Below are positions 6,216 through 31,988 of a stretch of DNA of 32,680 nucleotides, piece by piece. Position numbers and translations under genes: made by a program. The stretch is taken from IMG/VR virus record IMGVR_UViG_3300009441_000020, positions 1-32,680 of that record. One strand, written 5' to 3'. Numbering within the stretch: position 1 is the stretch's first letter; each line of letters starts with the position of its first letter. The DNA comes from a virus. The notes under the pieces are model-generated. The model searched no databases. It worked only from the letters and a program-made list of their open reading frames with translations, and was not told the origin of the DNA.

Positions 6216-6821
6216 TTACTCGTTAGGGTAATCTTTACATTTATTACCGTGCCATCTGTAATACATGTTTGGGTTAAATTGTTTACCACAGTGTTCGCAT
6301 GTTTTCTTAGTAACTTTTTTAGTTCCACCTGTCATGGCCTTTTTCATTGCAACAATGTGTTCAGCAGATTTCTTTTTACCAGCAAGCGCTTCAGAAACTT
6401 TTTTGTTCCATTCTAAAGTATGTGTTATATTCTTAGATGCTTCTGATATCTTCTGCTTAGTTTCATCACTATGTTTTTTACCTTTCATTCCACTTGAACC
6501 ACCTAAATGGTGTTGTCTTATTTTTTCTCTAACTTCTTTTGTAAATATTACCTCTGCTCCTCTTGCATTATTATAATATTTTTCAGATCTTAGGTTTATT
6601 TGTTTTAATAGTTCTTGTTCGTATTTTAAAGATTCTAATTTAGTTCCCTCAAAAACAATATCTCTTTTCCATTCCTTACTGTCATCTTCGAAATCATTCC
6701 AGAAAAGTTTACTGGAGGACGATGACACATATCCATCATTTTGATTACCCTTATGATAACCAATATATTTTTTATTATCGGTTAAATTATTCCATATATA
6801 CACAAATGCTTCTTCTTTCAT
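6216..6821 (-). CDS. GIY-YIG homing endonuclease with NUMOD3 repeats and zinc finger
   Basis: A free-standing 201-aa homing endonuclease. The N-terminus has the GIY-YIG core, FVYIWNNLTDNKKYIGYHKG, so the 'GIY' tyrosine motif is here YIW. The middle contains two NUMOD3-type DNA-contact repeats, GMKGKKHSDETKQKISEA and LAGKKKSAEHIVAMKKA. The C-terminus is a CxxC...HxxxC zinc finger, CEHCGKQF ending in RWHGNKC. It nicks or cuts DNA to spread itself, as the T4 Seg proteins do. It sits between the LOG gene and the putative modification genes without disturbing either frame, which suggests insertion into a pre-existing operon. No intron boundaries are visible. Confidence 0.9.
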   Translation of the reverse strand: MKEEAFVYIWNNLTDNKKYIGYHKGNQNDGYVSSSSSKLFWNDFEDDSKEWKRDIVFEGTKLESLKYEQELLKQINLRSEKYYNNARGAEVIFTKEVREKIRQHHLGGSSGMKGKKHSDETKQKISEASKNITHTLEWNKKVSEALAGKKKSAEHIVAMKKAMTGGTKKVTKKTCEHCGKQFNPNMYYRWHGNKCKDYPNE

Positions 6822-12922: not shown

Positions 12923-13351
12923 TTAATATGTTGGAGTTTCTATTATCTTCAACTTAATAAGTTCAGCAATAAATTCTCTGTATTTCATTTTTTTAATTCC
13001 ACTAATAATAGTTTTATCACCTTCTACAAAATCAGAACCGTCAAAGTAATATGAGTTACCGTTATTGGCTGCTATTGTTATAACGTCACCTATCATAAAG
13101 TCAGAAGGACATCTTCTAGCACCAGATAAATCTTTTACAACATCTTTTCCCCATGCAGATAAACCATCTTGTTCACTTACACTACCGTCATATCTAATAG
13201 GATTTCCTGGCAATGCTTGTACAGCGTCACCTTCTGGCGTTCCATCAACTGCATAATAATATGCAAGAATAGCGTTAGCTAATGCTTCATCTCTGCCAGC
13301 TTTTAATTTTGCTTCGTTAAGAAACTGTTCAAATAATTGTAAGTGTTTCAT
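12923..13351 (-). CDS. Putative packaged internal head protein with capsid-targeting N-terminus (142 aa)
   Basis: The N-terminus MKHLQLFEQFLNE/AKLK matches the pattern of T4 capsid-targeting sequences (MKTYQEFIAE in internal protein III), with LNE as a possible gp21 prohead protease site after residue 13. The remaining ~129 residues contain a helical part (EALANAILAYYYAVDGTPEGDAV) and a beta-rich SH3-like stretch (DFMIGDVITIAANNGNSYYFDGSDFVEG). The body has no recognised family. Its first 27 nt (including the base before ATG) are identical to those of the next gene upstream, exactly 300 bp away. The role of the mature protein after injection is unknown. Confidence 0.75.
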   Translation of the reverse strand: MKHLQLFEQFLNEAKLKAGRDEALANAILAYYYAVDGTPEGDAVQALPGNPIRYDGSVSEQDGLSAWGKDVVKDLSGARRCPSDFMIGDVITIAANNGNSYYFDGSDFVEGDKTIISGIKKMKYREFIAELIKLKIIETPTY

Positions 13352-13352
13352 T
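13326..13352 (-). repeat. 27-bp direct repeat at gene 5' end, copy 1
   Basis: Identical to 13626-13652, with the two copies exactly 300 bp apart. It covers the start codon and the first codons for the CTS-like module. Recombination between the copies would precisely delete the 96-aa gene and keep a functional start. Confidence 0.9.
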
Positions 13353-13360
13353 TTAGTTTT

Positions 13361-13651
13361 TTATGTGTTTTGATTAATATAATCTATAAAGTCATCTGCT
13401 GTCTTACATGGATCATCTGATTGATCAGAACCTGGTCTTTTTTGGTATTCAATACCACATTCTTCATCTTCTGCATTCCACCAAAACATAAAACCGGCCG
13501 AGCTTACGCTTCCGTCTTCTATATAATCATTTACATAGATTTCCACTTCAGATGGTTCTGTGTCTTCGTAATAGTCTGCTATCTTTTTAATTTCTTTCTT
13601 GATATTAACTTTTTCGTTAATGAATTGTTCAAATAATTGTAAGTGTTTCAT
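13361..13651 (-). CDS. Putative packaged internal head protein with capsid-targeting N-terminus (96 aa)
   Basis: Begins MKHLQLFEQFINE/KVNIK: the same targeting module as its neighbour, with a candidate cleavage after INE (residue 13). The mature part (~83 residues) is strongly acidic (DYYEDTEPSEVEIYVNDYIEDGS, then DEECGIEY and DQSDDPCKTADDFIDY) and no family is recognised. An acidic body could mimic DNA or bind a basic host protein, but this is speculation. The leader carries three perfect copies of a 12-nt A-rich unit. Confidence 0.75.
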   Translation of the reverse strand: MKHLQLFEQFINEKVNIKKEIKKIADYYEDTEPSEVEIYVNDYIEDGSVSSAGFMFWWNAEDEECGIEYQKRPGSDQSDDPCKTADDFIDYINQNT

Positions 13652-13652
13652 T
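13626..13652 (-). repeat. 27-bp direct repeat at gene 5' end, copy 2
   Basis: Partner of 13326-13352. The same 27 bases encode the start and first residues MKHLQLFE of this gene, a recent module duplication or a site maintained by gene conversion. Confidence 0.9.
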
Positions 13653-13654
13653 AT

Positions 13655-13690
13655 TGTTTTATTGTTTGTTTTATTGTTTGTTTTATTGTT
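13655..13690 (-). repeat. Tandem 12-bp leader repeat, three copies
   Basis: On the minus strand AACAATAAAACA occurs three times without interruption, directly before the ATG at 13651. The same AAACAA-type text appears singly before many genes here, so the array probably acts as an A-rich translation-initiation leader in a host that does not rely on Shine-Dalgarno pairing. Confidence 0.85.
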
Positions 13691-13701
13691 TAATAGAACG
13701 T

Positions 13702-14763
13702 TTAATGACCATATTTACGATCCCATGCATAATCGAAATCTTCTATCTTATCTATTTCGAGTCTAAGCTTATGAGCAGTTTCTAAGATATCTTCATCATA
13801 GTGTGTTGGTGCATCTCCGTATTTATCTTTTAATTCTGCTTGTCCTTCCATGGAATATGTGTACGTTCTAAAAGCACCCAATATTCTGTTCATTTGCATT
13901 GCAGCATGTGTCATTGTCACTTCTTTACCACCAGGTGCAGTACCTATAACAACATCATCGTCCTTTCCTACACTTCTTCCAAATTCTTTTATACCATCTT
14001 TAATTTGCTCGGTTAAATCCATAATAGCATCCTTGACCATTTTACCTAATGGAAGTTTAACTGCAGCACTTTGTAAAATGTCTTTATATCTTTTTAGGTT
14101 TTCATATTTAAATTCCATATCGTTTTTATATACAATGGCTCCAACTTTTTCAGCATCTCGTTGTGCTATCTTATTTACCGTTGAATATCTTTGTTGTAAT
14201 GAATCGACATCAATAATAATAGCTCTATCTGAAACTTCAGCGATTCTCTTTACACTAGTAAGACCTGTTCCTTGCCATCCTGATCTTGTCTTATTAATAC
14301 CTATAGTTTCTTCACCTCTTTGCTTATCTGTTTCTATACTTCTAGGAGTTTTATATTTTCCTGACATTTGTTGTACTCTGTCCAAATATCCATGTAGGTC
14401 TCTATCAACAAAGAATTTATTATTTTCATCGGCAACACATAACATGTATTCACCTCCTGGGATAGTTCTTGATCTTATAGATTGAGCTTCCTCGGGAGCG
14501 TATGGGTTAACTTTTTCAACATCTGAAATGTAGAAAGTAATTGTGTTTTTACCTTTAGCCTTATATGCAGCATGTGGTGTTGTTACGATTAAATCATCAT
14601 CTTGTATCTTATCTAATGCTATTTTAGTTTTACCATAAAATGCTTCAGGTAATGTACTGTGTACGCCACCTCCATTAAATAAATCTCTAAGTATTTGTGA
14701 ACTAAACGCCTCGTTTAATTTCTGTGAAGTTACAAATGCTTCAAATAAGTGTATGTGTTTCAT
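13702..14763 (-). CDS. Putative packaged internal head protein with CTS; paralogue of the next upstream gene (353 aa)
   Basis: Starts MKHIHLFEAFVTSQKLNE/AFSSQ, a capsid-targeting-like module with a likely prohead-protease site after LNE at residue 18. The mature ~335-residue domain is clearly paralogous to the C-terminal half of the gene upstream. Shared blocks include LPEAFYGKTKIALDKIQDDD, NTITFYISDVEKVNPYAP, TIPGGEYML, GINKTRSGWQGTGLTSVKRI and IDKIEDFDYAW. The fold is unknown to me; the alternating beta segments and conserved Arg/Tyr would fit an enzyme. T4 packages its Alt ADP-ribosyltransferase in the same way, but I see no convincing R-S-E ADP-ribosyltransferase motif. Head packaging is inferred from the N-terminus. 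Confidence 0.75.
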   Translation of the reverse strand: MKHIHLFEAFVTSQKLNEAFSSQILRDLFNGGGVHSTLPEAFYGKTKIALDKIQDDDLIVTTPHAAYKAKGKNTITFYISDVEKVNPYAPEEAQSIRSRTIPGGEYMLCVADENNKFFVDRDLHGYLDRVQQMSGKYKTPRSIETDKQRGEETIGINKTRSGWQGTGLTSVKRIAEVSDRAIIIDVDSLQQRYSTVNKIAQRDAEKVGAIVYKNDMEFKYENLKRYKDILQSAAVKLPLGKMVKDAIMDLTEQIKDGIKEFGRSVGKDDDVVIGTAPGGKEVTMTHAAMQMNRILGAFRTYTYSMEGQAELKDKYGDAPTHYDEDILETAHKLRLEIDKIEDFDYAWDRKYGH

Positions 14764-14784: not shown

Positions 14785-16596
14785 TTACCAAGCGTAATCA
14801 AAAGATTCAATTTTATTAACACCATCTTTGATACGTTTTGCATAGTTTTTAACTTCTCTTTGGTACCATGATTCAGATGAACCAAATCTTTTTTCAGATT
14901 CTGCATCTTGTTGAACATAATCAACATATCTAGAATAATCATCTAAAATACTTGACATGTGGTTAGAAGCATCCTTCATTTTTACGTGATTACCTTTTCT
15001 GTTAGTTCCAATAGAGATTTCTCCGTATTTGGTCTTTTCACCTTTAGATAAACCATCTTTAATTTGTTGAGTTAATGTATCAATAGCATCTGCGACCATT
15101 TTATCTAATGGTAATGTAGCAGCTTTAGTTGCTAATATCTGTTCGTATCTTGTCTTGTTTTCTTGTTTAAAATCAGCATGTGATTTAAATGCTGCAGCTC
15201 CTGATTTTGCTAACGCTCTATCATTTCTTTTGTTTGTAGTTGAATACTTTTGTTGTAATAACTCAACATTAATAACAATAGCTCTATCTGCAACTTCAGC
15301 AATTCTTTTTACATTGTAAAGTCCAGTTGCATCCCATCCTTTGTATTTTTTACCGATACCAATAGAGTCAGTTGGATTATTACCTACAATTTTAAGGTTT
15401 CTATCATCGTTTTTTCTACTACTATATCTACTAGATGATGTCCAAGTTTGATCATAAAATTTATTACCACCTGAAGTAACTGCTAATAAGTAACCTCCAC
15501 CTGGAATAGTTTGATTAGACCTATACCCATCTTGCGGTGCATGTGGGTTTTCTTTCTCATTATCTGAGATATAAAAAACGATAGTGTTTGTTTGTTTTGC
15601 TTTATACGCTGTTTGTGGATCGGTACTGATAATATCTTCATCTTGTACTTTATCCATAGCAACTTTAGTAGAACCATAAAAAGCTTTAGCTAAATGTTTA
15701 TCTAGTTTGCCATTAGTTCCCATAAATAATTGAGCAAGTCTCTGTGAGCCGAATGCTTCAGTAATCATAGATCCAACTTTAACTGTAAATGTTCCGTTAG
15801 ACTCTTCGATATAATCTGCAAGGCCTGCATCGTCCCAGCCGTTTTCAGATGCTAATACTTTTTCTAGATCCTTTCTATCTCCAGTTAATTCAACTTCTGG
15901 CCATCCGCTTGGTCCTTCGTTGTCAATGACTTCCATTGTAACTTTATGTTTCTTAAGTAATTTTGTTAAGATTTTAGATCCTGGATCGATAGCATCCATC
16001 ACTACAGTTGCTTCGTTTAATGATCCTACGAAGTCACTGAATGATTCGAATACAAATTGATTTTTCATATTTTTGTTTGTTTTATTTTCTTTTACTAGTC
16101 GTGGGTTTTTATTAAGAAGTTCTTCCATGTCTATTTCTGTAAGTGCCATGAAGCTATCTTCACCGTATTTTTTAGCTAATCTATCAGCCTTCTTAACGTC
16201 AATAACTCTAATTAGTTCATCATATGATAAAGTTGCAATTCCAAATTCTCCAAAGAATTCTTCGGCGTTTGCATTTGCTACTTTAAAAGCGGATGCTTTT
16301 TCATTTACTGGTACTAACTTGTTAAGAACTTTTCTACCCGTTTTAGAAAGTGTAATACCTTCTTCGCTGACATTAAAATAAGAAGAATTTCTTCTTAACC
16401 ATCTCGTTGAATCAGTTGTCATTTCTCTAACAATAAAATTAAATTCATCTTGAGTAACTTTACCATCTTTGATAGCTTCTAATACCTTGTTTCTGATTTT
16501 AGCAGCTTTACCAACAGTTCTTGCCGGGTGATTATCGGTGTATTTTCTCTTAACCGTGATGTTTCTTTCTTCTAGTGGTTCTTCGTTAATGTCCAT
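14785..16596 (-). CDS. Modular internal head protein precursor with internal CTS and cleavage sites (603 aa)
   Basis: Four segments can be separated. Residues 1-176 form a helical region with a winged-helix-like part (YFNVSEEGITLSKTGRKVLNKL). At Met177 a CTS-like module begins, MKNQFVFESFSDFVGSLNE/A. Residues 197-275 repeat the 'KHKVTMEV...WPEVELTGDRKDLEKVL' module found in the 577-aa protein. After GSMITE/AFGSQ (residue 280) comes the ~320-aa domain shared with the 353-aa gene downstream. The codons just before Met177 spell AAAATAAAACAAACAAAAAT, a typical leader of this phage, so an old intergenic region appears to be translated in frame. A second start at 16068 (427 aa) is therefore plausible. 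A promoter-like 22-mer lies just upstream. Confidence 0.8.
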   Translation of the reverse strand: MDINEEPLEERNITVKRKYTDNHPARTVGKAAKIRNKVLEAIKDGKVTQDEFNFIVREMTTDSTRWLRRNSSYFNVSEEGITLSKTGRKVLNKLVPVNEKASAFKVANANAEEFFGEFGIATLSYDELIRVIDVKKADRLAKKYGEDSFMALTEIDMEELLNKNPRLVKENKTNKNMKNQFVFESFSDFVGSLNEATVVMDAIDPGSKILTKLLKKHKVTMEVIDNEGPSGWPEVELTGDRKDLEKVLASENGWDDAGLADYIEESNGTFTVKVGSMITEAFGSQRLAQLFMGTNGKLDKHLAKAFYGSTKVAMDKVQDEDIISTDPQTAYKAKQTNTIVFYISDNEKENPHAPQDGYRSNQTIPGGGYLLAVTSGGNKFYDQTWTSSSRYSSRKNDDRNLKIVGNNPTDSIGIGKKYKGWDATGLYNVKRIAEVADRAIVINVELLQQKYSTTNKRNDRALAKSGAAAFKSHADFKQENKTRYEQILATKAATLPLDKMVADAIDTLTQQIKDGLSKGEKTKYGEISIGTNRKGNHVKMKDASNHMSSILDDYSRYVDYVQQDAESEKRFGSSESWYQREVKNYAKRIKDGVNKIESFDYAW

Positions 16597-16602
16597 GTTT
16601 TA

Positions 16603-16627
16603 ATGTTATTATTTTATTATATATTCT
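16603..16627 (-). promoter_or_regulatory. Putative late promoter, copy A (22-bp shared element)
   Basis: The minus-strand core AATATATAATAAAATAATAA lies 10-30 nt before the ATG at 16596 and straddles the stop codon of the upstream gene. Twenty-two bases (16603-16624) are identical to 21533-21554, which has the same gene-end/gene-start position. T4 late promoters have only a TATAAATA -10 box, and this AT box with no -35 would fit that logic. Confidence 0.5.
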
Positions 16628-18464
16628 TAATAAATTGGTCGAATGTCATTGTCTCTATTTCAGATTCTGTTAAAACGCCCATCGAATCTTCTAATTTTGA
16701 TTTTAATTCTTTATACATTTTATGTAAAGGTGTTGGTGTTAGCTTCTTAAACAACTTCTCATCACCGTCTAACATTGCATTTCTAACTTGTGTTGCTGAA
16801 ATATTATTGCCAGTTCTTGGAATCTCATATAATCCAAAATCAGGTCTTACACCAAGATCTTCTCTATAAGTATCTTTATTTACTTGAAACCCATAAGTCT
16901 TCATTCTATCACTTCCTGTTCCCCATAATACTGGTTCATATTTTGGCCTCATTGCATTAAACATAGTATCAATACCGCCAGTTGGTATTACGAAAACTTC
17001 TTCGATTGGATATTTAGATTTTAAAGATTTAATCATTTCTACTTGAGTGTCCTCGTCATAAGGTCTCTTAAATGCATCTTCTTTCTTTTTAGTCTTAGAT
17101 TTAACTAAGAATATAACTACTGGATATCCGTTTTGTTTATGTATAGCTTCAACAACTTTAACATGACCTAATGTAAATGGTTGAAATCTTCCAACGAACA
17201 TGTTTACTAATTTAGTACCTTGTTCTGGATAATCCACTTTAAGTGCTTCTAAGACTGGTGATTCAGTATATTGTAATTTTTGATTTAATAAGTATGCTTT
17301 AAAATTCATAACATCACTTTCATTTGTTTTTGACATTACAACTGCTTCTATAGTATCAACAATATCATTGATTTGATTCATTAAATCTTTATTAATAATA
17401 TCTGTTTCTTTGTTTCTTCTTTTTCTAAAACTACCCAATGTAATTTTAAATAATTCAGATAATACTTTATTTTGTACTAATGATACAGTTTTTTCGTTTG
17501 ATATAAATGCAGGATTAAGTTCAAATCCTCTATTGTCAGAAAAATCTGCTGAATCAAAATTAGCGCCTATATATTTTGGTGCATTCTTCTGAACATATTC
17601 GTTAAATAATATTGATATCAGCTCAATATATCTTAAATCTGGTTCTTCTTCTTCAAGTGACACATCTTTCAAGTCAAAGCTTGTAATGTATTCTACTAAA
17701 TCCAGAATTGATATTTGGTACATATCAGAAGGTTGCCTAGGTTCTTGTTGTTTTCTATCAAAACGCTCTAGTTTAAAACTCTTAGGATTTTTACCTTCAT
17801 AAAAGTTCAATATCAATCCATCTATGTCGGTGTCTAATGTTGTGTTTAATGCTGGATTATTAAGACCATTATTAAATATGTTGTAAATAGATCTAGTAAA
17901 AGATTGATCTTTGTATCTTAATGAGAAATCAGAATCTGACATACCTAAAAGAGATATTAAGTCATCTTTTTGGTTAGATTGTAATTTACCTTGAAATATG
18001 ATCGGTGGTCTTTGTACACCCAATGTATCTGCCCACTTGTTTAAAACTTGTGGATCTCTAATTACCTTTTTGATTTGTGTTAAATCATTAGGGTTTAATA
18101 CTTGTATATGTGTTAATATTAAATTGTTTTTAGGAAGTGTTTCATATTCTATGTCTACTGTTTTGTTTTCGATCATGTAATCGAAACCAAACTTCCAATC
18201 CAATGGCATGTCTTCTGTTACTTCACTTAATATGGTACCAAAATATTTAATACCATTTTCATAGTATTTAACCATAGTTCTATCAATTCTATCCATAGAA
18301 TATTTAGAACCACTTTTAAAGTATTCAAAACCTGTATTTGTTTTCTTTACGTGGAAAGAAGACGCTTGTATTTTTTCAGATACAACACATGGTAATTCTA
18401 ATATTGACATAAAGTCGTTAATATTAGTTTCTTTAAAGTATGTTCTTAAATTTTGTAATGCCAT
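16617..18464 (-). CDS. Ligase-type nucleotidyltransferase fused to NMN-adenylyltransferase-like domain (615 aa)
   Basis: N-terminal ~280 residues: an RNA/DNA-ligase-type nucleotidyltransferase, with motif I VSEKIQASSFHV (likely nucleotidyl-lysine Lys31), a motif III-like FGFDYMI, motif IV DIDGLILNF and motif V KSFKLERF. A helical linker follows. From about residue 440 there is an HxGH-superfamily nucleotidyltransferase of the NadM/NadR NMNAT type, with GRFQPFTLGHVKVVEAI, then GTGSDRM and ISATQVRNAM (the ISxTxxR motif). Such an enzyme joins NMN and ATP into NAD. The fusion puts NAD formation and an adenylation/ligation domain in one chain. It lies 11 nt upstream of a related ligase-like gene's stop and within the internal-protein operon. 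It lacks an N-terminal CTS, but the C-terminus (TMTFDQFIKNI) resembles one. Confidence 0.75.
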   Translation of the reverse strand: MALQNLRTYFKETNINDFMSILELPCVVSEKIQASSFHVKKTNTGFEYFKSGSKYSMDRIDRTMVKYYENGIKYFGTILSEVTEDMPLDWKFGFDYMIENKTVDIEYETLPKNNLILTHIQVLNPNDLTQIKKVIRDPQVLNKWADTLGVQRPPIIFQGKLQSNQKDDLISLLGMSDSDFSLRYKDQSFTRSIYNIFNNGLNNPALNTTLDTDIDGLILNFYEGKNPKSFKLERFDRKQQEPRQPSDMYQISILDLVEYITSFDLKDVSLEEEEPDLRYIELISILFNEYVQKNAPKYIGANFDSADFSDNRGFELNPAFISNEKTVSLVQNKVLSELFKITLGSFRKRRNKETDIINKDLMNQINDIVDTIEAVVMSKTNESDVMNFKAYLLNQKLQYTESPVLEALKVDYPEQGTKLVNMFVGRFQPFTLGHVKVVEAIHKQNGYPVVIFLVKSKTKKKEDAFKRPYDEDTQVEMIKSLKSKYPIEEVFVIPTGGIDTMFNAMRPKYEPVLWGTGSDRMKTYGFQVNKDTYREDLGVRPDFGLYEIPRTGNNISATQVRNAMLDGDEKLFKKLTPTPLHKMYKELKSKLEDSMGVLTESEIETMTFDQFIKNI

Positions 18465-18474
18465 ATTATATTGT

Positions 18475-19758
18475 TTATCTTCCGTATTTGATAATACCCA
18501 TAAGCTGATTTATAGCAGCGAATGTGCCTGTTAATTTAAATGTCTTACCTTTATATACAAATACTAATCCTTCAGTAGGTATAATAGATTCAACACCTCC
18601 GATTCTATCTAATCTTGCAAGTTCTGCTTCAACCTTTTCTATGGCTTTTATATCTCCGCCCTTTCTAAGTTTATCAGCTTCTGTTCTAATTTGATCATGT
18701 AATCTCTGTGCCTCAGCATCAGGATTGGCAGCAACAAAATTACTTGCATTTTTAAGAATAACGCTTCCTAGTTCTAAGAATAAATCCTCAAATGGTCTAA
18801 TGTTTTCTTTATATTTTTTAGCAACGTCCTCTTTATCGAACTTCTTAATAATAGCTGCTTTATCTTTTCCTAACTCTTTATCTAATGATCTTAAATTAAG
18901 TGTCTTTTTGTCAGCATACGCCCATCTTAATAATAAACCTTCTTTAAAGTCTTGTGATAAGTCTGGGAAATTAATATCTATTTGTTCTCTCCACCACATT
19001 TCGTGATATCTTGAAACCTCATCGGCATCTGTTAAATTATACCTAGCTCTTAGTACTTCTACTTTCTTTACAAACTTTTCTTTGTTCTTTTCAAAATCAA
19101 GATCCTTACCTAATTTAATAATTTGTGGAGGGATTATAGTAAATGTTTTACCTACATTTTTCTTAAGATCTGATAAAGCCTTTGTAATTGATTTAGCATA
19201 CTTAGTTTCTTCTCCTATGATATTACCTTCGCCGTCTGTTATTTTAATTCCATGAAACTGAATAATGTCTCTGTCATAATAGATAACGTTTGGATTTTTA
19301 GAGTAAATAAGCTCCATATTCATGAAGTTCAGTCCGTTATCGAATGCCTCTAAATCTTTAGATGAGAGTGATGATAAAGCGTCTGATAGATCTGTTGCTG
19401 CAAAGATATATGTTTCTTCGACCAATTTAGATGCGTGACCAGTGAACATTGAAATGATACCATTAAGGTCTAATGGATTTTTCATTTGTCCTTTGTTTCT
19501 GGCAAACATTGCTTGACCATCTTTTACAGTAACAAATAAGTTTTGACCATCTGTTTTTTCAGTAGGCTCTTCTTCAAAGTTTAATTCACCAGATAGTCCA
19601 GCTTCTATTAAATTTTTAAAATCACCAAATGTAAGTGATTTGTCATCAAACGGATGTTTCATGTGCCCTGCAGCACCACCTTCTAGAATCAATGATTCTC
19701 GTATATTGATGTGCAAACCTTCTGTTACAAACTGTTCAAACTTATTATAAATCTTCAT
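18475..19758 (-). CDS. Ligase-type nucleotidyltransferase with capsid-targeting N-terminus (427 aa)
   Basis: Begins MKIYNKFEQFVTE/GLHIN, very close to the T4 internal-protein leader, with a second candidate cleavage LILE/GG at residue 26. The body has covalent nucleotidyltransferase motifs: motif I EKTDGQNLFV (Lys68, in the KxDG form), an arginine in MFARNKG (motif Ia-like), motif III FMNMELIY (Glu149), motif IV EGLVFVYKG (Glu396) and motif V TFKLTG (Lys408). Members of this superfamily adenylate themselves and then seal nicked DNA or RNA or cap RNA. A C-terminal OB fold is not evident, which fits RNA ligases better than classical DNA ligases. If the N-terminus works as in T4, the enzyme is packed in the head and enters the cell with the genome. 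Confidence 0.75.
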   Translation of the reverse strand: MKIYNKFEQFVTEGLHINIRESLILEGGAAGHMKHPFDDKSLTFGDFKNLIEAGLSGELNFEEEPTEKTDGQNLFVTVKDGQAMFARNKGQMKNPLDLNGIISMFTGHASKLVEETYIFAATDLSDALSSLSSKDLEAFDNGLNFMNMELIYSKNPNVIYYDRDIIQFHGIKITDGEGNIIGEETKYAKSITKALSDLKKNVGKTFTIIPPQIIKLGKDLDFEKNKEKFVKKVEVLRARYNLTDADEVSRYHEMWWREQIDINFPDLSQDFKEGLLLRWAYADKKTLNLRSLDKELGKDKAAIIKKFDKEDVAKKYKENIRPFEDLFLELGSVILKNASNFVAANPDAEAQRLHDQIRTEADKLRKGGDIKAIEKVEAELARLDRIGGVESIIPTEGLVFVYKGKTFKLTGTFAAINQLMGIIKYGR

Positions 19759-19779: not shown

Positions 19780-21513
19780 TTAAGCTCCTAGTGAACTAGT
19801 TAACATACCGGCAGCAGTACCATAATCTCCATCTGCTTTTGCTAATATTCCGTCAATTACTTTTTTTGCTTTTGCTTCGTCAAACTCTTCTCCAAATGCT
19901 TGTTTTAAAACAGTATTTGCGTATTCGTTAAACTCTTCGTCAGATTTAATTTCTGCTTCAGTTATTACTGATTCATACGCATCTTCATGATCATCGATAG
20001 AATCCGGTCCCCATATATCAGCTAAAACCTTTTCAATATCTTTTCTTTTACCAGTTAATTTAACTTCTGGGTAACCATGGTCTCCTTCTTCTTTTTCAAC
20101 TTCCATTTTAACCTTGTTCTTCTTTAAAGATTTAGTTAAAGGTATATGTTTAGTTGGGTGGATACCATCATCGTTTCCAAATTCTATACCTGAAAGAGAT
20201 GCTTCAGTTATTACTGATTCTTTAACAAATATTGCTTCTTTATCACTATATCCAGGTTCTAATGAAAGTCCGTGTTTTTTCATTAATGATTTGTATTTAT
20301 CAACGTTATTAATAAATTCAATAGCAACGTCATCCATATCGCTTGGATCTGTATTTAGAAATCCTGTATAATCATCGTGTTTTTTATCAAATTGATAGTC
20401 TTTAGAAATCATTGTTAAGAACGCATTAACTTCTGATTTACCTTCAGTAATTACTGATTCTTCAATTTGTGCCGATTCTGACATATTGAATGCATTTAAT
20501 AAAGATTGTCCTGTAGCTTCTTGTTTAATACTTTCTAAATACAGTGCAGTACCTTCAACTATTCCAATACCTGACCATCCAGCAGCATTTGCTATATCTG
20601 AATAATATTGATCTAATATTCTTTTAGTTGTTGTAGCTCCAATTTTAATGAAATAATTTCCTAAACCTGGCATTTTAATTTCAAAACTGCCAATGTTACC
20701 TTTAATATTCTTAGAAATTACAAAACCTTCTCTTGAAAAGTTTGCATCTTCCATCGCTTGTTCAAATAAGTATTTGATACATCCTAATTCACCTTGTAGT
20801 GACATAGCACCAAAATCAGTTAATCTCTTTGCAAATAAGTTTCTATATACTGTAAGTACTTTTTTAGCATCTCTTTTGTATTCTACCTTAATAGCTTCAT
20901 TTACAGAAACTGATAAAGATTCAAATGCTGGTTGTAATTCAGTACCTGCATAAACATCTGCCATTAACCATTCTTTGTTGGCTTCGTCCCATAAATATAC
21001 ATATTCTGCTCCATCATTGCTAGCATCTTTTATGTATTTTTTTACATCTGCAATACTACCCTTAAGGTTTTTAGAACCATCTTTATAGAAGTTCATTTTA
21101 TCTGGAGTAGCCTCTAATCCGGATGAATTACCACCCTTAATTACAGCATCTACGTTTTTGCCGGCTTTATATCCTTTTTTAATAAGAGGTAATACATTTT
21201 CTGGGTAAGAATCATAATGAGTGTAAATAGAAACAATGTTTCCTTTCTTATCAATTTTACCAAATTGTCCTCTTGTTCCTTCTTCAATTAACGCAACAGA
21301 TTCACTAATTTCTGTTCCTCTTAATTTATTGAAGAATTCAGGTTTTTGATCTTCTGTTAGCTCTTTAATAGAAGTAACATTAAACTCAGCTAATAAATTT
21401 TTAAATGTTTCAGCTTCATCAGATCTCTTAGTAGAGTTGTCTTCTTCTACTTGTCTAGTCTGTGTGATCTTAACTTCAGTAGAAAACTGATCAAATGATT
21501 TTAATTTGTGCAT
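19780..21513 (-). CDS. Internal head polyprotein with CTS and repeated ESVITE cleavage linkers (577 aa)
   Basis: Starts MHKLKSFDQFSTE/V, a CTS-like module. The chain is divided by repeated short linkers: ESVALIEE/G (71-79), SVSVNE/A (201-207), ESVITE/G (352-358), ESVITE/A (432-438) and ESVITE/A (514-520). T4 gp21 cuts after Glu in (L/I)xE, so each is a plausible site. Segments: 80-206 (FGKIDKKGNIVSIYTHYDSYP..., a beta-rich phage domain), 207-357 (a helical then Gly-rich domain), 358-437, 438-519 (the KVKMEV...PEVKLTGKRKDIEKVL module shared with the 603-aa protein) and 520-577. Its layout suggests several mature proteins packaged from one precursor. It is the first gene of its operon, 33 nt after UvsW. 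Confidence 0.75.
   Translation of the reverse strand: MHKLKSFDQFSTEVKITQTRQVEEDNSTKRSDEAETFKNLLAEFNVTSIKELTEDQKPEFFNKLRGTEISESVALIEEGTRGQFGKIDKKGNIVSIYTHYDSYPENVLPLIKKGYKAGKNVDAVIKGGNSSGLEATPDKMNFYKDGSKNLKGSIADVKKYIKDASNDGAEYVYLWDEANKEWLMADVYAGTELQPAFESLSVSVNEAIKVEYKRDAKKVLTVYRNLFAKRLTDFGAMSLQGELGCIKYLFEQAMEDANFSREGFVISKNIKGNIGSFEIKMPGLGNYFIKIGATTTKRILDQYYSDIANAAGWSGIGIVEGTALYLESIKQEATGQSLLNAFNMSESAQIEESVITEGKSEVNAFLTMISKDYQFDKKHDDYTGFLNTDPSDMDDVAIEFINNVDKYKSLMKKHGLSLEPGYSDKEAIFVKESVITEASLSGIEFGNDDGIHPTKHIPLTKSLKKNKVKMEVEKEEGDHGYPEVKLTGKRKDIEKVLADIWGPDSIDDHEDAYESVITEAEIKSDEEFNEYANTVLKQAFGEEFDEAKAKKVIDGILAKADGDYGTAAGMLTSSLGA
19954..20463 (-). repeat. Three dispersed copies of the ESVITE-encoding linker
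   Basis: Near-identical ~18-nt segments (GAATCAGTAATAACTGAAG and a one-base variant) occur near 19956, 20203 and 20446, each coding for ESVITE at a domain boundary. Their nucleotide-level conservation suggests duplication or shuffling of whole linker-plus-domain units. Recombination between them would delete single domains in frame. Confidence 0.8.
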
Positions 21514-21532: not shown

Positions 21533-21556
21533 ATGTTATTATTTTATTATATATCT
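21533..21556 (-). promoter_or_regulatory. Putative late promoter, copy B (22-bp shared element)
   Basis: The minus strand reads AGATATATAATAAAATAATA, overlapping the uvsW stop and preceding the polyprotein ATG (21513) by about 20-40 nt. It is identical over 22 bases to 16603-16624 and similar to 25975-25998. It would drive the internal-protein operon that ends at 12241. Confidence 0.5.
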
Positions 21557-23055
21557 CCTTCAAAATCTACATTTTTAATATCGTATTTAAACTTCTGTTC
21601 CCTGTAGATACGTTGCCTTTCTTTAGAATGTCGCATTAAGTAATTATCCCAATCTGGTGATGATAAATCATCTACAAAATCTATGATATTTACTGAGTCC
21701 TTTGAGCTATGTTGTCTAAGTCCACGGCCAATTGATTGTCTAATTATTACCTCAGATTTAAATGACTCTGTGAAAAATATGTTGTGTATTTTTTTAATAG
21801 AAATACCCGTTGAGAATGTACCATATGATGCAACAATAACAACTTCTTCGCCTGCCTCCATCTTTTTCTTATGTTCCTCTCTAATATCTTGATCAATTCC
21901 ACCATCAACATAATACACTTGCTTGTCACTTTCCTGTCTTAGTTTTTCATATATCTTTTTACCATGTTCAATGCGGTGAAATAACACTAAGCTATTACCT
22001 TTTACTCTAGAAATAATATTGGTTATAAAATTAAGCCTACCGATTGAATTGATCACATAGTTTTGTTCAAATTTAAAAACATCTTTACTTTCGTATCTAT
22101 TTTGTGACATTTCTCTAAATGCATCTTTAGTAGACTGTGGCGCATAATCCATTTTTATAATTTTAACCTTACATCCAGCAATAAATCCTTCGTTTTGTAA
22201 ATAGTTTGCACTTATCTCGGTGATCAATGGACCAGTGTATGCCATCAGTGTCAGTCTGTCTAATGTACCTTCTTTTGGAATTGTACCTGATAATCCATAC
22301 TTGTATTCTGCATTAACACATTTTTGTAATATAGTTTTAATAGACGCTGATTTAGCTTTATGTGTTTCATCTACAATAACTGCATCAAATTCTGCAAAAT
22401 AGGCCTTATCTTTTTTAACAAGAGATTGATACGTACCAATTACTACATTTCTGCCCGCTCTGATCTTTTGACCAGAATATATCTGCTGTACTTTGATATC
22501 TACTGCATTTCTATAGTTATAATCTAAGAAATCTTCGCTTGCTTGTACTACTAACGAAACATTAGGTACAATAAATAGAATTCTTTGTGCTTTTTGATGT
22601 TCTAATAGATATGTTACTGTTAAAAATGATATAAGTGTTTTACCGGCAGAAGTTGCTAGTTCACTTAAACATCTTTTAAATTTTAATATATTGAATGCTG
22701 CTTCGATTTGATAATCCCTAGGAGTAATCTCCGACTTGTCAAAGAACGCTAGTGCCCATTCTGTAAATTTTTCTTGGTTAATACTTGTGTCAAATATTTC
22801 TGTAATTCCATTCAGTTTAAACTCAAACTTATATTCCTTACATATACCCATAACTTCCCTCCATAGTCCAGAAGGAATCCACTTATCATCTTTAATATAT
22901 GAAACATATCCATCCCATAGGCCTTTCTTGACCAACGGGTTAAATCTCCATGACTCTATTCTCCTGTTAAGAGAAATATTGAGTTGTTCCAATTCTAATT
23001 CAGTTGCTTCATCAATACGTAACAACTGTTTGTTTTCAGTTAAACTAAGCTCCAC
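21547..23055 (-). CDS. uvsW: UvsW-like SF2 DNA/RNA helicase
   Basis: A 502-aa superfamily-2 helicase close in size to T4 UvsW. Motifs in order: PRDYQIEAA (Q/0), ATSAGKT (Walker A, 134-140), GTYQSL (Ib), VDETHKAKS (DExH, Asp229-His232), GLSGTIP (III), LVLFHRIEHGKKI (IV), FSTGISIKKIHNIFF (V) and QSIGRGLRQH (VI, arginine finger). The first ~100 residues form the UvsW-type N-terminal substrate-binding domain. T4 UvsW unwinds R-loops and branch-migrates recombination intermediates, and it shuts down origin-primed replication late. It follows the uvsY-like gene by 25 nt, matching the T4 uvsY/uvsW neighbourhood. Confidence 0.92.
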   Translation of the reverse strand: MELSLTENKQLLRIDEATELELEQLNISLNRRIESWRFNPLVKKGLWDGYVSYIKDDKWIPSGLWREVMGICKEYKFEFKLNGITEIFDTSINQEKFTEWALAFFDKSEITPRDYQIEAAFNILKFKRCLSELATSAGKTLISFLTVTYLLEHQKAQRILFIVPNVSLVVQASEDFLDYNYRNAVDIKVQQIYSGQKIRAGRNVVIGTYQSLVKKDKAYFAEFDAVIVDETHKAKSASIKTILQKCVNAEYKYGLSGTIPKEGTLDRLTLMAYTGPLITEISANYLQNEGFIAGCKVKIIKMDYAPQSTKDAFREMSQNRYESKDVFKFEQNYVINSIGRLNFITNIISRVKGNSLVLFHRIEHGKKIYEKLRQESDKQVYYVDGGIDQDIREEHKKKMEAGEEVVIVASYGTFSTGISIKKIHNIFFTESFKSEVIIRQSIGRGLRQHSSKDSVNIIDFVDDLSSPDWDNYLMRHSKERQRIYREQKFKYDIKNVDFEGDI

Positions 23056-23504: not shown

Positions 23505-23726
23505 TTAAAATAATGATTTCTTATTAGGGTTGGGTTTAATAAATTTAGATGTGATTTGTCTTTTCTTAAACTTAGGTTTAGGTAGCTCCATATCAGGTGA
23601 ATTGACACTAAGATCTAATGGCTTGAAATCTATTAATAGTTTCATACCCTTAAACCTGTCACTGTCTCTTTGAAATTCGTCAAAATTGTCTTCGACCATA
23701 TTACTAATGTCTTCTATACATACCAT
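23505..23726 (-). CDS. Hypothetical protein (73 aa)
   Basis: A small protein with an acidic N-terminus (MVCIEDISNMVEDNFDEFQRD) and a basic C-terminus (LPKPKFKKRQITSKFIKPNPNKKSLF). It overlaps the primase gene by 13 nt and ends 1 nt before the uvsY-like ATG, so translation is probably coupled. The charge-split design resembles small adaptor proteins. No family is recognised. Confidence 0.7.
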   Translation of the reverse strand: MVCIEDISNMVEDNFDEFQRDSDRFKGMKLLIDFKPLDLSVNSPDMELPKPKFKKRQITSKFIKPNPNKKSLF

Positions 23727-24790
23727 AGATCTAATTCGCTTGAAGTGAAATATTTATCGATCTTCTTGTGAGCGTCGATTTTTAACTCAAAACATTTCAA
23801 TATTAAGTCGTTTAGATCTTTAATATTATATGTATCTAACTTATTTTCCTTAAGAAATTTAGACCACATGAATACTGGACGGCCTCTCTTTAGTTTCTCT
23901 GCCATCTTCTTTTTTCCAGTAGGATCATTGTCAAACATATATCTAACAGTTGGTATCTCATCAAAATCATCCGTTGATCTACCTGCAGTTGCTAATGCCA
24001 ATGAGTTATTCATAAACTTAGCATCTAATGGTCCTTCGAACATCGTGATAGGCCTTTGAAAGTTTAATTGCATAATACCAAATAGTGTAGAAATCTTTGT
24101 CAATGTATTTAGATCTTCATTAGTCATCTCTAATGGTTTACCCATTTCTTCATATAACTTTGGCAGATCATATGTTAAATACCTCTGACCATAACCTTTC
24201 ATTCTACGTGTTTGTGCACCTATTATTTTACCATCATTGCTGTAATTTAAAATCCACAAACGAAATTCTTTCTCAGAATATAAGAAATCACCAGATCTTT
24301 GGTGTAATAATCTATCTTTCAGTTGAAACCAAATCCAGTCGCCAGGTTCTATTACCTTTGCTCTGAAGTGTTGTTTAAAATCATCAACATCTATTGCTAA
24401 ATTGTGTATTTGTTCTAGTGCTTGATGTTTTAGTACAGATTCTGGATTGACTTGTATTTTATTCTGTTTGATATAATCTATAACTAGAAATGAATCATCA
24501 GAATTGTCCATCTTTACTTCATGATCCTTTAAAAAAGTATACACATTGGTATGGTGACTACAATTATAGCAATGATACTGTAATGTGTCCCAAAATATAT
24601 TACCACGCTTTGCAGTATCGTCTTTATGGGAATCACCACAATAAGGACATGCTAGGGTTATTCGCCCATGCATGTCCTTTAGCAGCTTTTTATTAGGAGT
24701 AGAATGTACTTGGGATACTACTTCTTTAAGTGCGTATCTTATTTTATCCTTTAACTCTTCAGTAAGATTTACATTAGATGTCGAGGTCAT
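23714..24790 (-). CDS. 61: DNA primase, T4 gp61 type
   Basis: A 358-aa DnaG-like primase (T4 gp61 is 342 aa). The N-terminal zinc-binding domain is intact: ACPYCGDSH (Cys48, Cys51) and YHCYNCSHH (Cys74, Cys77). A TOPRIM-type core follows with MFEGPLDAKF (catalytic Glu and DA) and YMFDNDPTGKKK (DxD-like Asp-Asn-Asp). It makes short RNA primers for the lagging strand together with the gp41 helicase, which is not in this window. The gene overlaps the gp32 gene by 17 nt, which couples synthesis of two replication-fork proteins. Confidence 0.92.
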   Translation of the reverse strand: MTSTSNVNLTEELKDKIRYALKEVVSQVHSTPNKKLLKDMHGRITLACPYCGDSHKDDTAKRGNIFWDTLQYHCYNCSHHTNVYTFLKDHEVKMDNSDDSFLVIDYIKQNKIQVNPESVLKHQALEQIHNLAIDVDDFKQHFRAKVIEPGDWIWFQLKDRLLHQRSGDFLYSEKEFRLWILNYSNDGKIIGAQTRRMKGYGQRYLTYDLPKLYEEMGKPLEMTNEDLNTLTKISTLFGIMQLNFQRPITMFEGPLDAKFMNNSLALATAGRSTDDFDEIPTVRYMFDNDPTGKKKMAEKLKRGRPVFMWSKFLKENKLDTYNIKDLNDLILKCFELKIDAHKKIDKYFTSSELDLWYV

Positions 24791-25700
24791 TCAAAAAAGA
24801 ATCAAGATCATCGTCCGTACTAACTGTGTTTGTTGAAGCTGAAACTGCTGGTGCAGATTCTGTTACTCCAGCTGTTGCTGTTACTGGTTCCGCCACTTTG
24901 GCTGCTGCTCTTTTTGGAGGAGCGCTAGTCATGCTTGATATTGATTCACCTGGATTTAGATACATTCTTAATACATCGTTTACAAATGATCTTGTATCTT
25001 CGTCCCATGCTTGATAATCGTAACCTTTTAATGAAGGTGCTGCCTCTAATTCTCCTTTAATAGAAGTCATAGTTTCTTTACTACGTTCTGCAGGTGCATC
25101 GCCCATAATAATGGCTGATTTACTAGCTGAGAATTTAGATTTATCGTAGTTGTTATATTCACCTTGTCTAGTGATAATCAACTCAAAGTTCTTACCTTCA
25201 AATAGGTCAAATACTTGTGTTGGTTCACCAAAATCTGGCTTTAATTCTGCGTCGATTTTCTCTTTAATCTTATAACCAAATTTAAATACTTTATAAGTAC
25301 CTTCTAATTCTGGATTCTGTGGATCTTTAACGATCTTGATAAGAGAATAATATTGTTGACGTCTTTTCAATTTCTCAGAAGACTTACGGTCTACTGCTGA
25401 ATCTGATTTACGTAATTTCCAAAATACATCTGCAATTGGACACTTTTCTCCGATCGTTGCTGGACTATCTACTAGTTTACCATCACCGCTCGAGTTAGTT
25501 AGCCAGTGTACATATTTTTGAATTAGTGAATTACGAGGGTTTTCTGGGTTAGGTACAAAACGTATTAGTGCTTTGTAAGTTCCGTCTTTACCATCGTCTG
25601 CTGTTGGTTTGTAGATCTCGTTAGAAGAACTACTTGTTTGTACTTGGTGAGTTTCTACGTCTTCTACGCCCAAGTTAAAAATGTCAAATGAATCGCTCAT
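24774..25700 (-). CDS. 32: Single-stranded DNA-binding protein, T4 gp32 type
   Basis: A 308-aa ssDNA-binding protein. The core matches gp32-family proteins (YKALIRFVPNPENPRNSLIQKYVHWL, CPIADVFWKLRKSDSAVDRKSSEKLKRRQQYYSLIKIVKDPQNPELEGTYKVFKFG). The C-terminal tail is acidic (STDDDLDSFLNDLDI), as needed to bind partner proteins. T4 gp32 holds a zinc through His and three Cys; here only one Cys of that segment remains (CPIADVFW where T4 has CPVC), so the zinc site has been lost. An Ala/Val/Thr-rich linker joins the core to the tail. A leader with two 12-bp repeats precedes it. Confidence 0.93.
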   Translation of the reverse strand: MSDSFDIFNLGVEDVETHQVQTSSSSNEIYKPTADDGKDGTYKALIRFVPNPENPRNSLIQKYVHWLTNSSGDGKLVDSPATIGEKCPIADVFWKLRKSDSAVDRKSSEKLKRRQQYYSLIKIVKDPQNPELEGTYKVFKFGYKIKEKIDAELKPDFGEPTQVFDLFEGKNFELIITRQGEYNNYDKSKFSASKSAIIMGDAPAERSKETMTSIKGELEAAPSLKGYDYQAWDEDTRSFVNDVLRMYLNPGESISSMTSAPPKRAAAKVAEPVTATAGVTESAPAVSASTNTVSTDDDLDSFLNDLDI

Positions 25701-30590: not shown

Positions 30591-31988
30591 TTACAATTCA
30601 TTTTCAAAACCTTTATCTTCTCGACTAAGCTCTTGTTCTACATTATGTACTAGATATTGACTAGCAAAATATACATCTTTGTTTTCTACATCGAATGAAT
30701 ATGTTGTAAACTGTACACCTGTATTTATTAATTCATTAGAAATTACTGAGATCCACTCATTGTCTTGTGACAACATGCTATCTCCTACTATCACATTGCT
30801 GATATTCTTAAAGACAGCTCTTTCATCTTTTGTTTTAATTAAAACTGGATGTTCATGTGTTAGTTTAAGAGATCCATTGTTTATACTGTAGTATGATCCA
30901 TAACTATCTACTGTTATGTTGCTTACAACTGCGTTTGTATATGAGTCACTGTAATCTGCTGTAGCAACATCAAATTGCTTAAATATTACTCCATCATCAC
31001 CCAAACCTGTAATATCTAAAGATAATAATGCATCTCCTAATACAATATTTTCTACAGCTTTAGTTTCTCCATTAGCTAAAGTAAGTAAATCGCCTACTAA
31101 GTGACATCCTCCGCCTCCTCCGCCTCCGCCACTAAACGTTGGCAATGGTGTTGAAGATGGTGTCAGTGTTGGTGTTAAACCTGAACCTCCGGTTCCACTA
31201 CCTGTTCCACTGTCTAAAGTCGCAAATGGTGTCGGTTGTAGAGTTGGTACTGGTGTTAAAGTTGGTCCGGCGCCTGCACCACTTCCACTTGTTGGTGCTG
31301 GGGTTGGTGCTGGTTGTCCAGTTGGTACTGGGGTTGCAGTTGGCTGTGCAGCATTAGTTGCTCTACTAAGTACAGAACTATATGTAGTTCCTACTGCATT
31401 TGTAGCATAAGCCCAGCAATAATATGTAGTTCCTGGCGTTAAACCATTAAATACTTCTTGAATACCACCTGTTGCCCATGGGCCAATTGAATATGCTTCA
31501 TTATTACTTCTAGTTGGATTATCACCAAACCAAAAACCTCTACCTGTAAGAGGGGATCCATTTGCACTTGAAATATTACCATTAGCTATCAATGTAGTAC
31601 TACTACTTGCAGTAAAATTAACCATATTAACACTAGGTGCTGAAGGTCCTGGTGTTGCAGTTGGTGATAGTGGTGGTTCAGTTGCAGTTGGTGTTGCAGT
31701 TGGTTCAGCCGTTGGTATTGGCGTTGCAGTTGGTTCAGCCGTTGGATTTGGTGCTCCTGCTCCAGCAACTTGACTAACAAGTATAGAATCTATAGTTGTT
31801 GTGTTATCGTGCCTAACTGTTAGGGAATGACTCCTAGAAGCGCCCGTATTAGCTGCTACAGTAATAGTCCATTCATCTGTACTACCTACTCTATCCACAG
31901 TAATCCAACTGGGTGGAGTATCCCACGTATAAGCAGTGGATGATGGTGTTATTGTTACCGTTCTTTGATATTGGTTTGGTAGTGCCAT
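30591..31988 (-). CDS. BACON/FN3-like surface protein with C-terminal intein-like (Hint/BIL) domain (465 aa)
   Basis: Domains in order: BACON-like (1-75: PPSWITVD, DEWTITVAANTGASRSHSLTV, DSILVSQVAG); Thr/Pro/Glu linker (TAEPTATP repeats, 80-118); FN3-like domain (119-213, ending GLTPGTTYYCWAYATNAVGT); Thr/Pro/Gly linker; an eight-Gly run (287-294); then a Hint domain at Cys295. The Hint domain shows block A CHLVGDLLTLANGETKAVENI, block B LTHEHPVLI (Thr377, His378/His380) and C-terminal block YLVHN (His448, Asn449). The residue after Asn is Val, not Cys/Ser/Thr, so splicing is unlikely and self-cleavage (bacterial intein-like type A) is expected. The tail after Asn is just 16 residues. BACON domains are common in Bacteroidota and bind glycans or mucin. 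Confidence 0.75.
   Translation of the reverse strand: MALPNQYQRTVTITPSSTAYTWDTPPSWITVDRVGSTDEWTITVAANTGASRSHSLTVRHDNTTTIDSILVSQVAGAGAPNPTAEPTATPIPTAEPTATPTATEPPLSPTATPGPSAPSVNMVNFTASSSTTLIANGNISSANGSPLTGRGFWFGDNPTRSNNEAYSIGPWATGGIQEVFNGLTPGTTYYCWAYATNAVGTTYSSVLSRATNAAQPTATPVPTGQPAPTPAPTSGSGAGAGPTLTPVPTLQPTPFATLDSGTGSGTGGSGLTPTLTPSSTPLPTFSGGGGGGGGCHLVGDLLTLANGETKAVENIVLGDALLSLDITGLGDDGVIFKQFDVATADYSDSYTNAVVSNITVDSYGSYYSINNGSLKLTHEHPVLIKTKDERAVFKNISNVIVGDSMLSQDNEWISVISNELINTGVQFTTYSFDVENKDVYFASQYLVHNVEQELSREDKGFENEL
31693..31745 (-). repeat. Repeat coding for the Thr/Pro linker
   Basis: A 23-bp segment occurs at 31693-31715 and again at 31723-31745 (30-bp period), coding for the PTAEPTATP units. 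Slippage or recombination here would change linker length in steps of ten residues. Confidence 0.8.

Follow-up and report, generated by a model that had tools for sequence, protein, structure and literature searches.

Is an apparent ligase-NMNAT gene fusion of marine phages a head-maturation polyprotein?

Why should one phage gene join a domain that resembles RNA ligases to a domain that resembles the enzymes making NAD? The question is raised by a 32,680-bp fragment of an uncultured marine phage (IMG/VR record IMGVR_UViG_3300009441_000020; this whole stretch of DNA is "the window" below) with T4-like genes for a UvsW helicase (21547-23055), a primase relative (23714-24790) and gp32 (24774-25700). 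The open reading frame in question, q1 (16617-18464), lies on the minus strand, as do all the features of q1, of its neighbor q2 (18475-19758) and of their associated genes located below; it starts with ATG and encodes 615 amino acids made up of a ligase-like and an NMNAT-like (nicotinamide mononucleotide adenylyltransferase-like) module. A conserved prohead-protease-type site between these halves and a targeting-like peptide at the C-terminus suggest that the halves may separate, and in the marine clade to which q1 belongs what looks like a fusion is probably a polyprotein processed during head maturation. The fuller reading that we favor, while giving it somewhat less than an even chance, is that q1 is the precursor of a capsid-delivered, protease-matured ligase/NMNAT pair which, early in infection and together with q2, would repair RNA and supply NAD.

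The linker joining the two modules (residues 379-412; 17229-17330) is mostly predicted to be disordered (predicted local distance difference test, pLDDT, below 50 at residues 380-406). It contains, at the codons for E406 and A407 (17244-17249), a putative prohead-protease cut site, VLE|A. Conservation was judged on 79 distinct full-length IMG/VR homologues, marine and of the same architecture throughout: a linker site of the T4-type consensus (I/L/V/M)xE|(A/G) is present in all 79, q1 having no other conserved site of this kind, while seven control families together yielded one conserved (I/L/V/M)xE|(A/G/S) site, in primase. The second signal is the C-terminus, MTFDQFIKNI, which resembles the capsid-targeting-like peptides at the N-termini of neighboring genes; its heptamer FDQFIKN (residues 608-614; 16623-16643) follows GVLTE|S. 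Near the N-terminus, a capsid-targeting-like motif is found in 5 of the 33 genes of the window (q2 included) vs. 4 of 816 internal segments, and at related loci in 201 of 850 N-termini vs. 149 of 23259 internal segments. (A technical note: this enrichment motif was partly read off the genes in which it was counted, which is why the profile for testing the C-terminus was trained solely on other genes, making that test non-circular.) In 22 of 47 q1 homologues, and in the q1 of the window, the profile, built from the N-termini of other genes, gave the C-terminal heptamer its highest rank, and in 45 of the 47 a rank among the top three; in none of 228 control proteins did a C-terminal heptamer come first.

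The same two kinds of signal occur in q2, which encodes an RNA-ligase-fold protein of 427 amino acids. Residues 1-13 (MKIYNKFEQFVTE; 19720-19758) form a capsid-targeting-like peptide, so assigned from its invariant E13 and the N-terminal enrichment, and the codons for E26 and G27 (19678-19683) mark a putative cut site, LILE|GG; E13, E26, G27 and G28 are invariant in 74 sequences although residues 13-33 are predicted to be disordered (pLDDT below 50). T4 offers the reference: its sites include IAE|A, LRE|S and LTE|A, its internal protein III starts MKTYQEFIAE|A, and its gp24 loses the first 10 residues by a cut at LRE|S (PMC9958956). In their MKxxxxFxxFLxE-type N-termini and (I/L)xE| sites, q2 and its neighbors resemble the internal head proteins of T4 (IPI-IPIII and Alt, with their capsid-targeting sequence and gp21 cleavage). 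The product of q1 differs from these in consisting of ligase and NMNAT modules and in having its targeting-like peptide at the C-terminus. Of the marks of a packaged internal head protein, the targeting peptide is found at the N-terminus of q2 and in q1 only as a C-terminal look-alike; the (I/L)xE| site is found, as a sequence pattern, at E26 of q2 and E406 of q1. A prohead protease (Peptidase_S77) was detected in 18 of the 19 records searched. It sits in open frames of 570-830 amino acids (records behind L030, L043, L018 and others), far exceeding T4 gp21, and may, in its turn, belong to a polyprotein.

Do ligase and nucleotidyltransferase (NTase) keep company elsewhere? The ligase-then-NTase order of q1 recurs in a 503-amino-acid protein of 15 Campylobacter phage records (the CP220 group) and in a 484-amino-acid relative in six Vibrio phage records (the Va1 group), both annotated "hypothetical protein". 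BFVD entry A0A410T6C5, which from its length of 484 amino acids we infer to be the Va1 protein, matches the q1 model across both halves (E = 2.5e-19). In Stenotrophomonas phage Moby and Xanthomonas phage X1, a small KxDG...EG ligase-like frame overlaps the frame for the NTase; Microcystis phage Mel-JY01 joins an NTase to a q2-type ligase, as does LR756508, and open-ocean phage polyproteins of 1,100-1,650 amino acids combine an NTase with a q2-type ligase and a P-loop kinase or other domains. The chief evidence that the two activities form a pair is that they have been joined repeatedly and in either order, and we consider it very probable that their partnership is functional. In contig L334 (L334:1-3827), the N-terminal domain of q1 is followed by an unrelated domain, and the NTase stands behind the N-terminal domain of the associated gene at 14785-16596, with an LNE|AL junction; such re-sorting of modules at protease-type sites is what a cut polyprotein predicts.

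The open-ocean polyproteins (L244-L323; for example L289:4347-9275, L259:2833-7062 and L270:6423-10304) run from a targeting-like N-terminus through a P-loop kinase (AAA_33/zeta-toxin-like), the NMNAT-like NTase and more domains to a C-terminal q2-type ligase. Their domains are joined by LxE-like junctions; a variant (L318:2483-6094) places Zn_protease (PF05618) and phrog_36119 domains between NTase and ligase. L334 is a phage-like contig in the Flavobacteriaceae metagenome-assembled genome UBA5079, a weak hint at a host. A bacterial origin of the fusion was considered and rejected: a scan of genome contigs, made with FVGRFQPF-type patterns and biased to them, gave mostly NTase-only relatives (23-40%), largely from archaea and the candidate phyla radiation, plus that same short phage-like contig. 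In passages of two surveys that deal with NAD and RNA-repair systems of phages (PMC9503650, PMC7824862), the partner of NMNAT is a Nudix domain or a kinase and no joining to a ligase appears, which is not proof of novelty.

That both halves have the folds assigned to them is close to certain. The motifs listed in an earlier note on this DNA (Lys31, DIDGLILNF, KSFKL, GRFQPFTLGH and ISATQVRNA) are all where it placed them, and the structure prediction that it called for, run on the whole of q1, bears out a ligase fold in the N-terminal half and a HIGH-superfamily NTase in the C-terminal half. The AlphaFold2 model (47 homologues) has a mean pLDDT of 82.8, with poorly ordered stretches at residues 380-406, 457-465 and 598-606. 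Since q1 was folded whole and its list of VIA matches was filled by the NTase half, the match for the N-terminal half comes from Foldseek: T4 Rnl2 (2hvr, E = 5e-8) is the best structural match, and a fungal tRNA ligase is also found. Residues 1-378 (17331-18464) are an Rnl2-like ligase-fold domain with a helical C-terminal part; as modeled, it has the covalent nucleotidyltransferase fold expected of an Rnl2-type RNA ligase. Against five relatives at 79-83% identity, the ratio of nonsynonymous to synonymous substitution rates (dN/dS) is 0.11-0.13 for the N-terminal and 0.07-0.14 for the C-terminal half: both halves are under purifying selection. This, together with the 79 distinct homologues, rules out a chance reading frame.

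The scheme that we favor can be set out as follows. Rnl2-like ligase and NMNAT-like modules would be made as a single chain beside q2, a second RNA-ligase-type protein, complete in its catalytic motifs; capsid-targeting-like peptides would bring both products into the prohead, where the prohead protease would cut q1 at E406|A407, and perhaps also within its C-terminal tail, and q2 at E26|G27. The separate enzymes would then leave the capsid with the genome to act in the host as an early counter-defense: the ligases by sealing broken RNA (or DNA), the NTase by making NAD+ from NMN and ATP. Sequence and models bear out the reading frame, its two folds, the conserved motifs, the recurring linkage of ligase and NTase, the cleavage-type site kept in the linker and the resemblance of the C-terminal peptide to the N-terminal ones next door. 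Packaging, cleavage, NMN as a substrate, RNA as the ligase substrate and counter-defense are the steps that we infer, the weakest being the enzyme substrates and packaging. Packaging of the q1 product in the head we nonetheless consider likely and its cleavage between the halves nearly as likely; a role in counter-defense is possible, on the doubtful side. Several points weigh against the scheme: q1 has no N-terminal targeting peptide; its C-terminal site fits the strict form (I/L)xE|(A/G/S) in 14 of the 79 homologues and a relaxed form in 59; the Campylobacter and Vibrio fusions have neither the linker site nor the targeting peptides, so that their halves should stay joined; some lineages show decaying ligase motifs; the NMNAT score of the C-terminal half is 39 bits against a curated cut-off of 181.2 (NadM/TIGR01527); and the cleavage specificity is borrowed from the T4 protease, packaging being read from sequence rather than from virion proteomics.

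If the Campylobacter and Vibrio relatives stay joined, might q1 do so as well? It would then be, in a refinement of the view of the earlier note, a permanently bifunctional enzyme made during infection, its ligase half sealing RNA and its NMNAT half restoring NAD, with the conservation of the linker structural and the tail incidental. That the two modules are a single reading frame in every one of the 79 marine relatives fits this view; the presence of a conserved protease-type site exactly within the disordered linker, the location of the modules on different reading frames in L334, and the capsid-targeting-like peptides of the neighboring genes do not. We regard a permanent union as unlikely. 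Among known systems, NadR (NMNAT plus ribosylnicotinamide kinase) resembles q1 in joining an NMNAT domain to a second nucleotide-handling domain, the partner in q1 being a ligase fold and not a kinase; the polyvalent proteins of phages (PMC5512222), which viruses and plasmids deploy in conflicts, resemble it in being built of several domains.

What does the NTase act on? Residues 413-595 (16680-17228) match Pfam CTP_transf_like (PF01467, E = 4e-10), and their top VIA match is the NMNAT of M. jannaschii (1f9a; Z 14.3, 154 residues superposed at 2.8 A). The motifs are GRFQPFTLGH (425-434), WGTGSDR, ISATQVRNA (555-563) and PxxLHxMY; R426, T431, H434, D519, R520, S556 and R561 are invariant in the 79 homologues. 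The Rossmann-like HIGH NTase fold with (H/T)xGH and ISxTxxR, which marks NMNAT membership, is thus present, and NMNAT is the best guess for this half from profile and model. The enzyme might instead serve another phosphorylated substrate (phosphopantetheine-like, a sugar phosphate, or a precursor for nucleic-acid modification): the structural scores of NadD and PPAT lie no more than 1 Z away from that of NMNAT, all NCBIfam scores (NMNAT 39, NadD 26, PPAT 19 bits) are far under their cut-offs, and passages of one survey (PMC7824862) assign other phage HIGH NTases to sugar nucleotides. A profile search with the q1 domain nevertheless puts NMNATs first (1f9a, 1e-10) and PPAT later (3e-6), and neither the GRFQPF signature nor the positions that align with R11, H19 and R136 of archaeal NMNAT vary. 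A substrate other than NMN is improbable, and NMN or nicotinic acid mononucleotide (NaMN) the one to be expected on balance. The earlier reading of this half as NMNAT-like stands as to fold and is the best one; its family score falls short.

The rest of the NAD pathway fits less neatly. Every phage with NadM also has NadV, according to passages of one survey (PMC9503650). Records with NadV (NAPRTase) numbered 4 of 19 in one set and 5 of 9 in another, overlapping set, the window's own genome being a fragment; in the complete records of CP220, Va1 and Mel-JY01, all with related fusions, the search for NadV came up empty. The system is thus not simply the NARP2-like NadV-NadM route, and the missing NadV also speaks for a non-NMN substrate. 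NAD restoration by q1 is possible. The C-terminal half shares with archaeal and NadM-type NMNATs (1f9a, 1ej2; KVP40-type NadM) the fold, GRFQPF, (H/T)xGH and ISxTxxR; it differs in its ligase rather than Nudix partner, in GSDR and PxxLHxMY, in scores under cut-off, and in the frequent absence of NadV from the genome. Structural matches to the NTase include cyanophage "cytidyltransferases"; a tblastn search with an open-ocean NTase found no cyanophage.

Is the ligase half still a ligase? Its motifs are E30-K31 (in EKIQASSF), DIDGLILNF (213-221) and KSFKL (228-232), and the candidate nucleotidyl-lysine, K31 (codon at 18372-18374), is invariant in the 79 marine homologues, which agrees with the earlier claim of a ligase domain. 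With the T4 Rnl2 family it shares an EKIxGxxF-type motif I and the helical C-terminal part; it differs in motif IV, where Glu is replaced by Asp or lost (residue 215 is Asp or Glu in 70 of 79 and Ala or Ser in 9), and in motif V, where Lys231 is Lys in 76 of 79 and the second Lys is replaced, mostly by Glu. Pfam RNA_ligase does not match q1 and matches the CP220 relative weakly (E = 0.029), and hhalign detected no sequence homology of this half to T4 Rnl2 or to q2, so that the likeness to Rnl2 is one of structure and motif. One can imagine a dead or dying ligase fold retained as an RNA-binding or head-assembly domain, with q2 the sole active ligase, a proposal that overlaps the other readings. 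Stand-alone relatives in phages of 634-735 kb have Asp or Asn in place of K31, and the LR756500 fusion has Asn, which makes this half look like a pseudo-ligase in some lineages; the nine marine sequences without the motif IV acid point the same way. Set against this are the invariance of E30, K31 and K50 and the always acidic residue 95 in the marine set, and the canonical motifs of the CP220, Va1, Moby and X1 partners, and we doubt that the half is dead in q1. (The stand-alone relatives are at L164:2968-4329, L415:2923-4263, L416:2920-4275 and L417:2857-4179.) The suggestion that the fusion supplies NAD to an NAD-dependent ligase finds no support: the half resembles ATP-dependent Rnl2, and no LigA-type adenylation or NMN-binding domain was found in Pfam at E up to 0.1. 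A main replicative ligase is unlikely for relatives of q1; CP220 also carries a gp30 DNA ligase and RnlA (PMC2853527).

Very unlikely, finally, is a pair acting on RNA 5' ends as a system of NAD capping or decapping after transcription, in which the NMNAT-like module transfers NMN to pppA-RNA (or takes it off in the reverse reaction) while the ligase/capping-enzyme fold holds the RNA, and just as unlikely is its variant delivered by the capsid and matured by the head protease. In its favor, PPAT, related to NMNAT, caps pppA-RNA in vitro (PMC10761072); NMNATs, perhaps with the help of auxiliary factors, are listed in a review among the candidates for NAD capping (PMC8131947); and the NTase is recurrently linked to RNA-ligase folds. 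Against it, the authors of that review saw neither capping nor decapping by E. coli NadD and NadR (PMC8131947), and the linker site predicts separated modules in the marine clade.

The neighborhood may be described briefly. The ligase-like neighbor mentioned in the earlier note is q2: its model matches a Naegleria RNA ligase (Z 8.8), with T4 Rnl1 and Trl1 near, and its motif set is complete, K68, D70, G71, R87, E149, E396 and K408 being invariant in the 74 sequences. It accompanies q1 at all 161 q1 places read, within 60 bp at 139 (the two locus sets overlap partly). Beyond it, the gene at 19780-21513 has a capsid-targeting-like N-terminus and five conserved (I/L/V)xE|(A/G/S) sites, including ESVITE|A; its product is a probable packaged polyprotein and is probably cut several times. 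On the other side of q1 lie the gene at 14785-16596 and three small associated genes (12923-13351, 13361-13651 and 13702-14763; together 12923-14763) that start MKHLQLFEQFLNE or similar. The products of 13702-14763 and 14785-16596 have in common a C-terminal domain of unknown function (AFYGxTKxAxDKxQDxD...) and look like paralogues. Farther off, inspection by eye suggests a Hint (hedgehog/intein)-like domain in the C-terminal part (CHLVGDLLTLANGETK...) of a Pro/Thr-rich protein (30591-31988) and a putative GIY-YIG homing endonuclease at 6216-6821.

What would follow? The recurrent linkage of ligase and NMNAT across distant phages, culturable ones included, points to a common pathway, of which no description was found. 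A review regards the enzyme that caps RNA with NAD after transcription as still undescribed (PMC8131947), and these proteins are natural candidates for it. If the favored reading is true, what looks like a gene fusion can turn out to be a polyprotein of head maturation, and these phages bring RNA-ligase and NAD-forming enzymes ready-made into the cell along with their DNA, so that counter-defense could precede phage gene expression.
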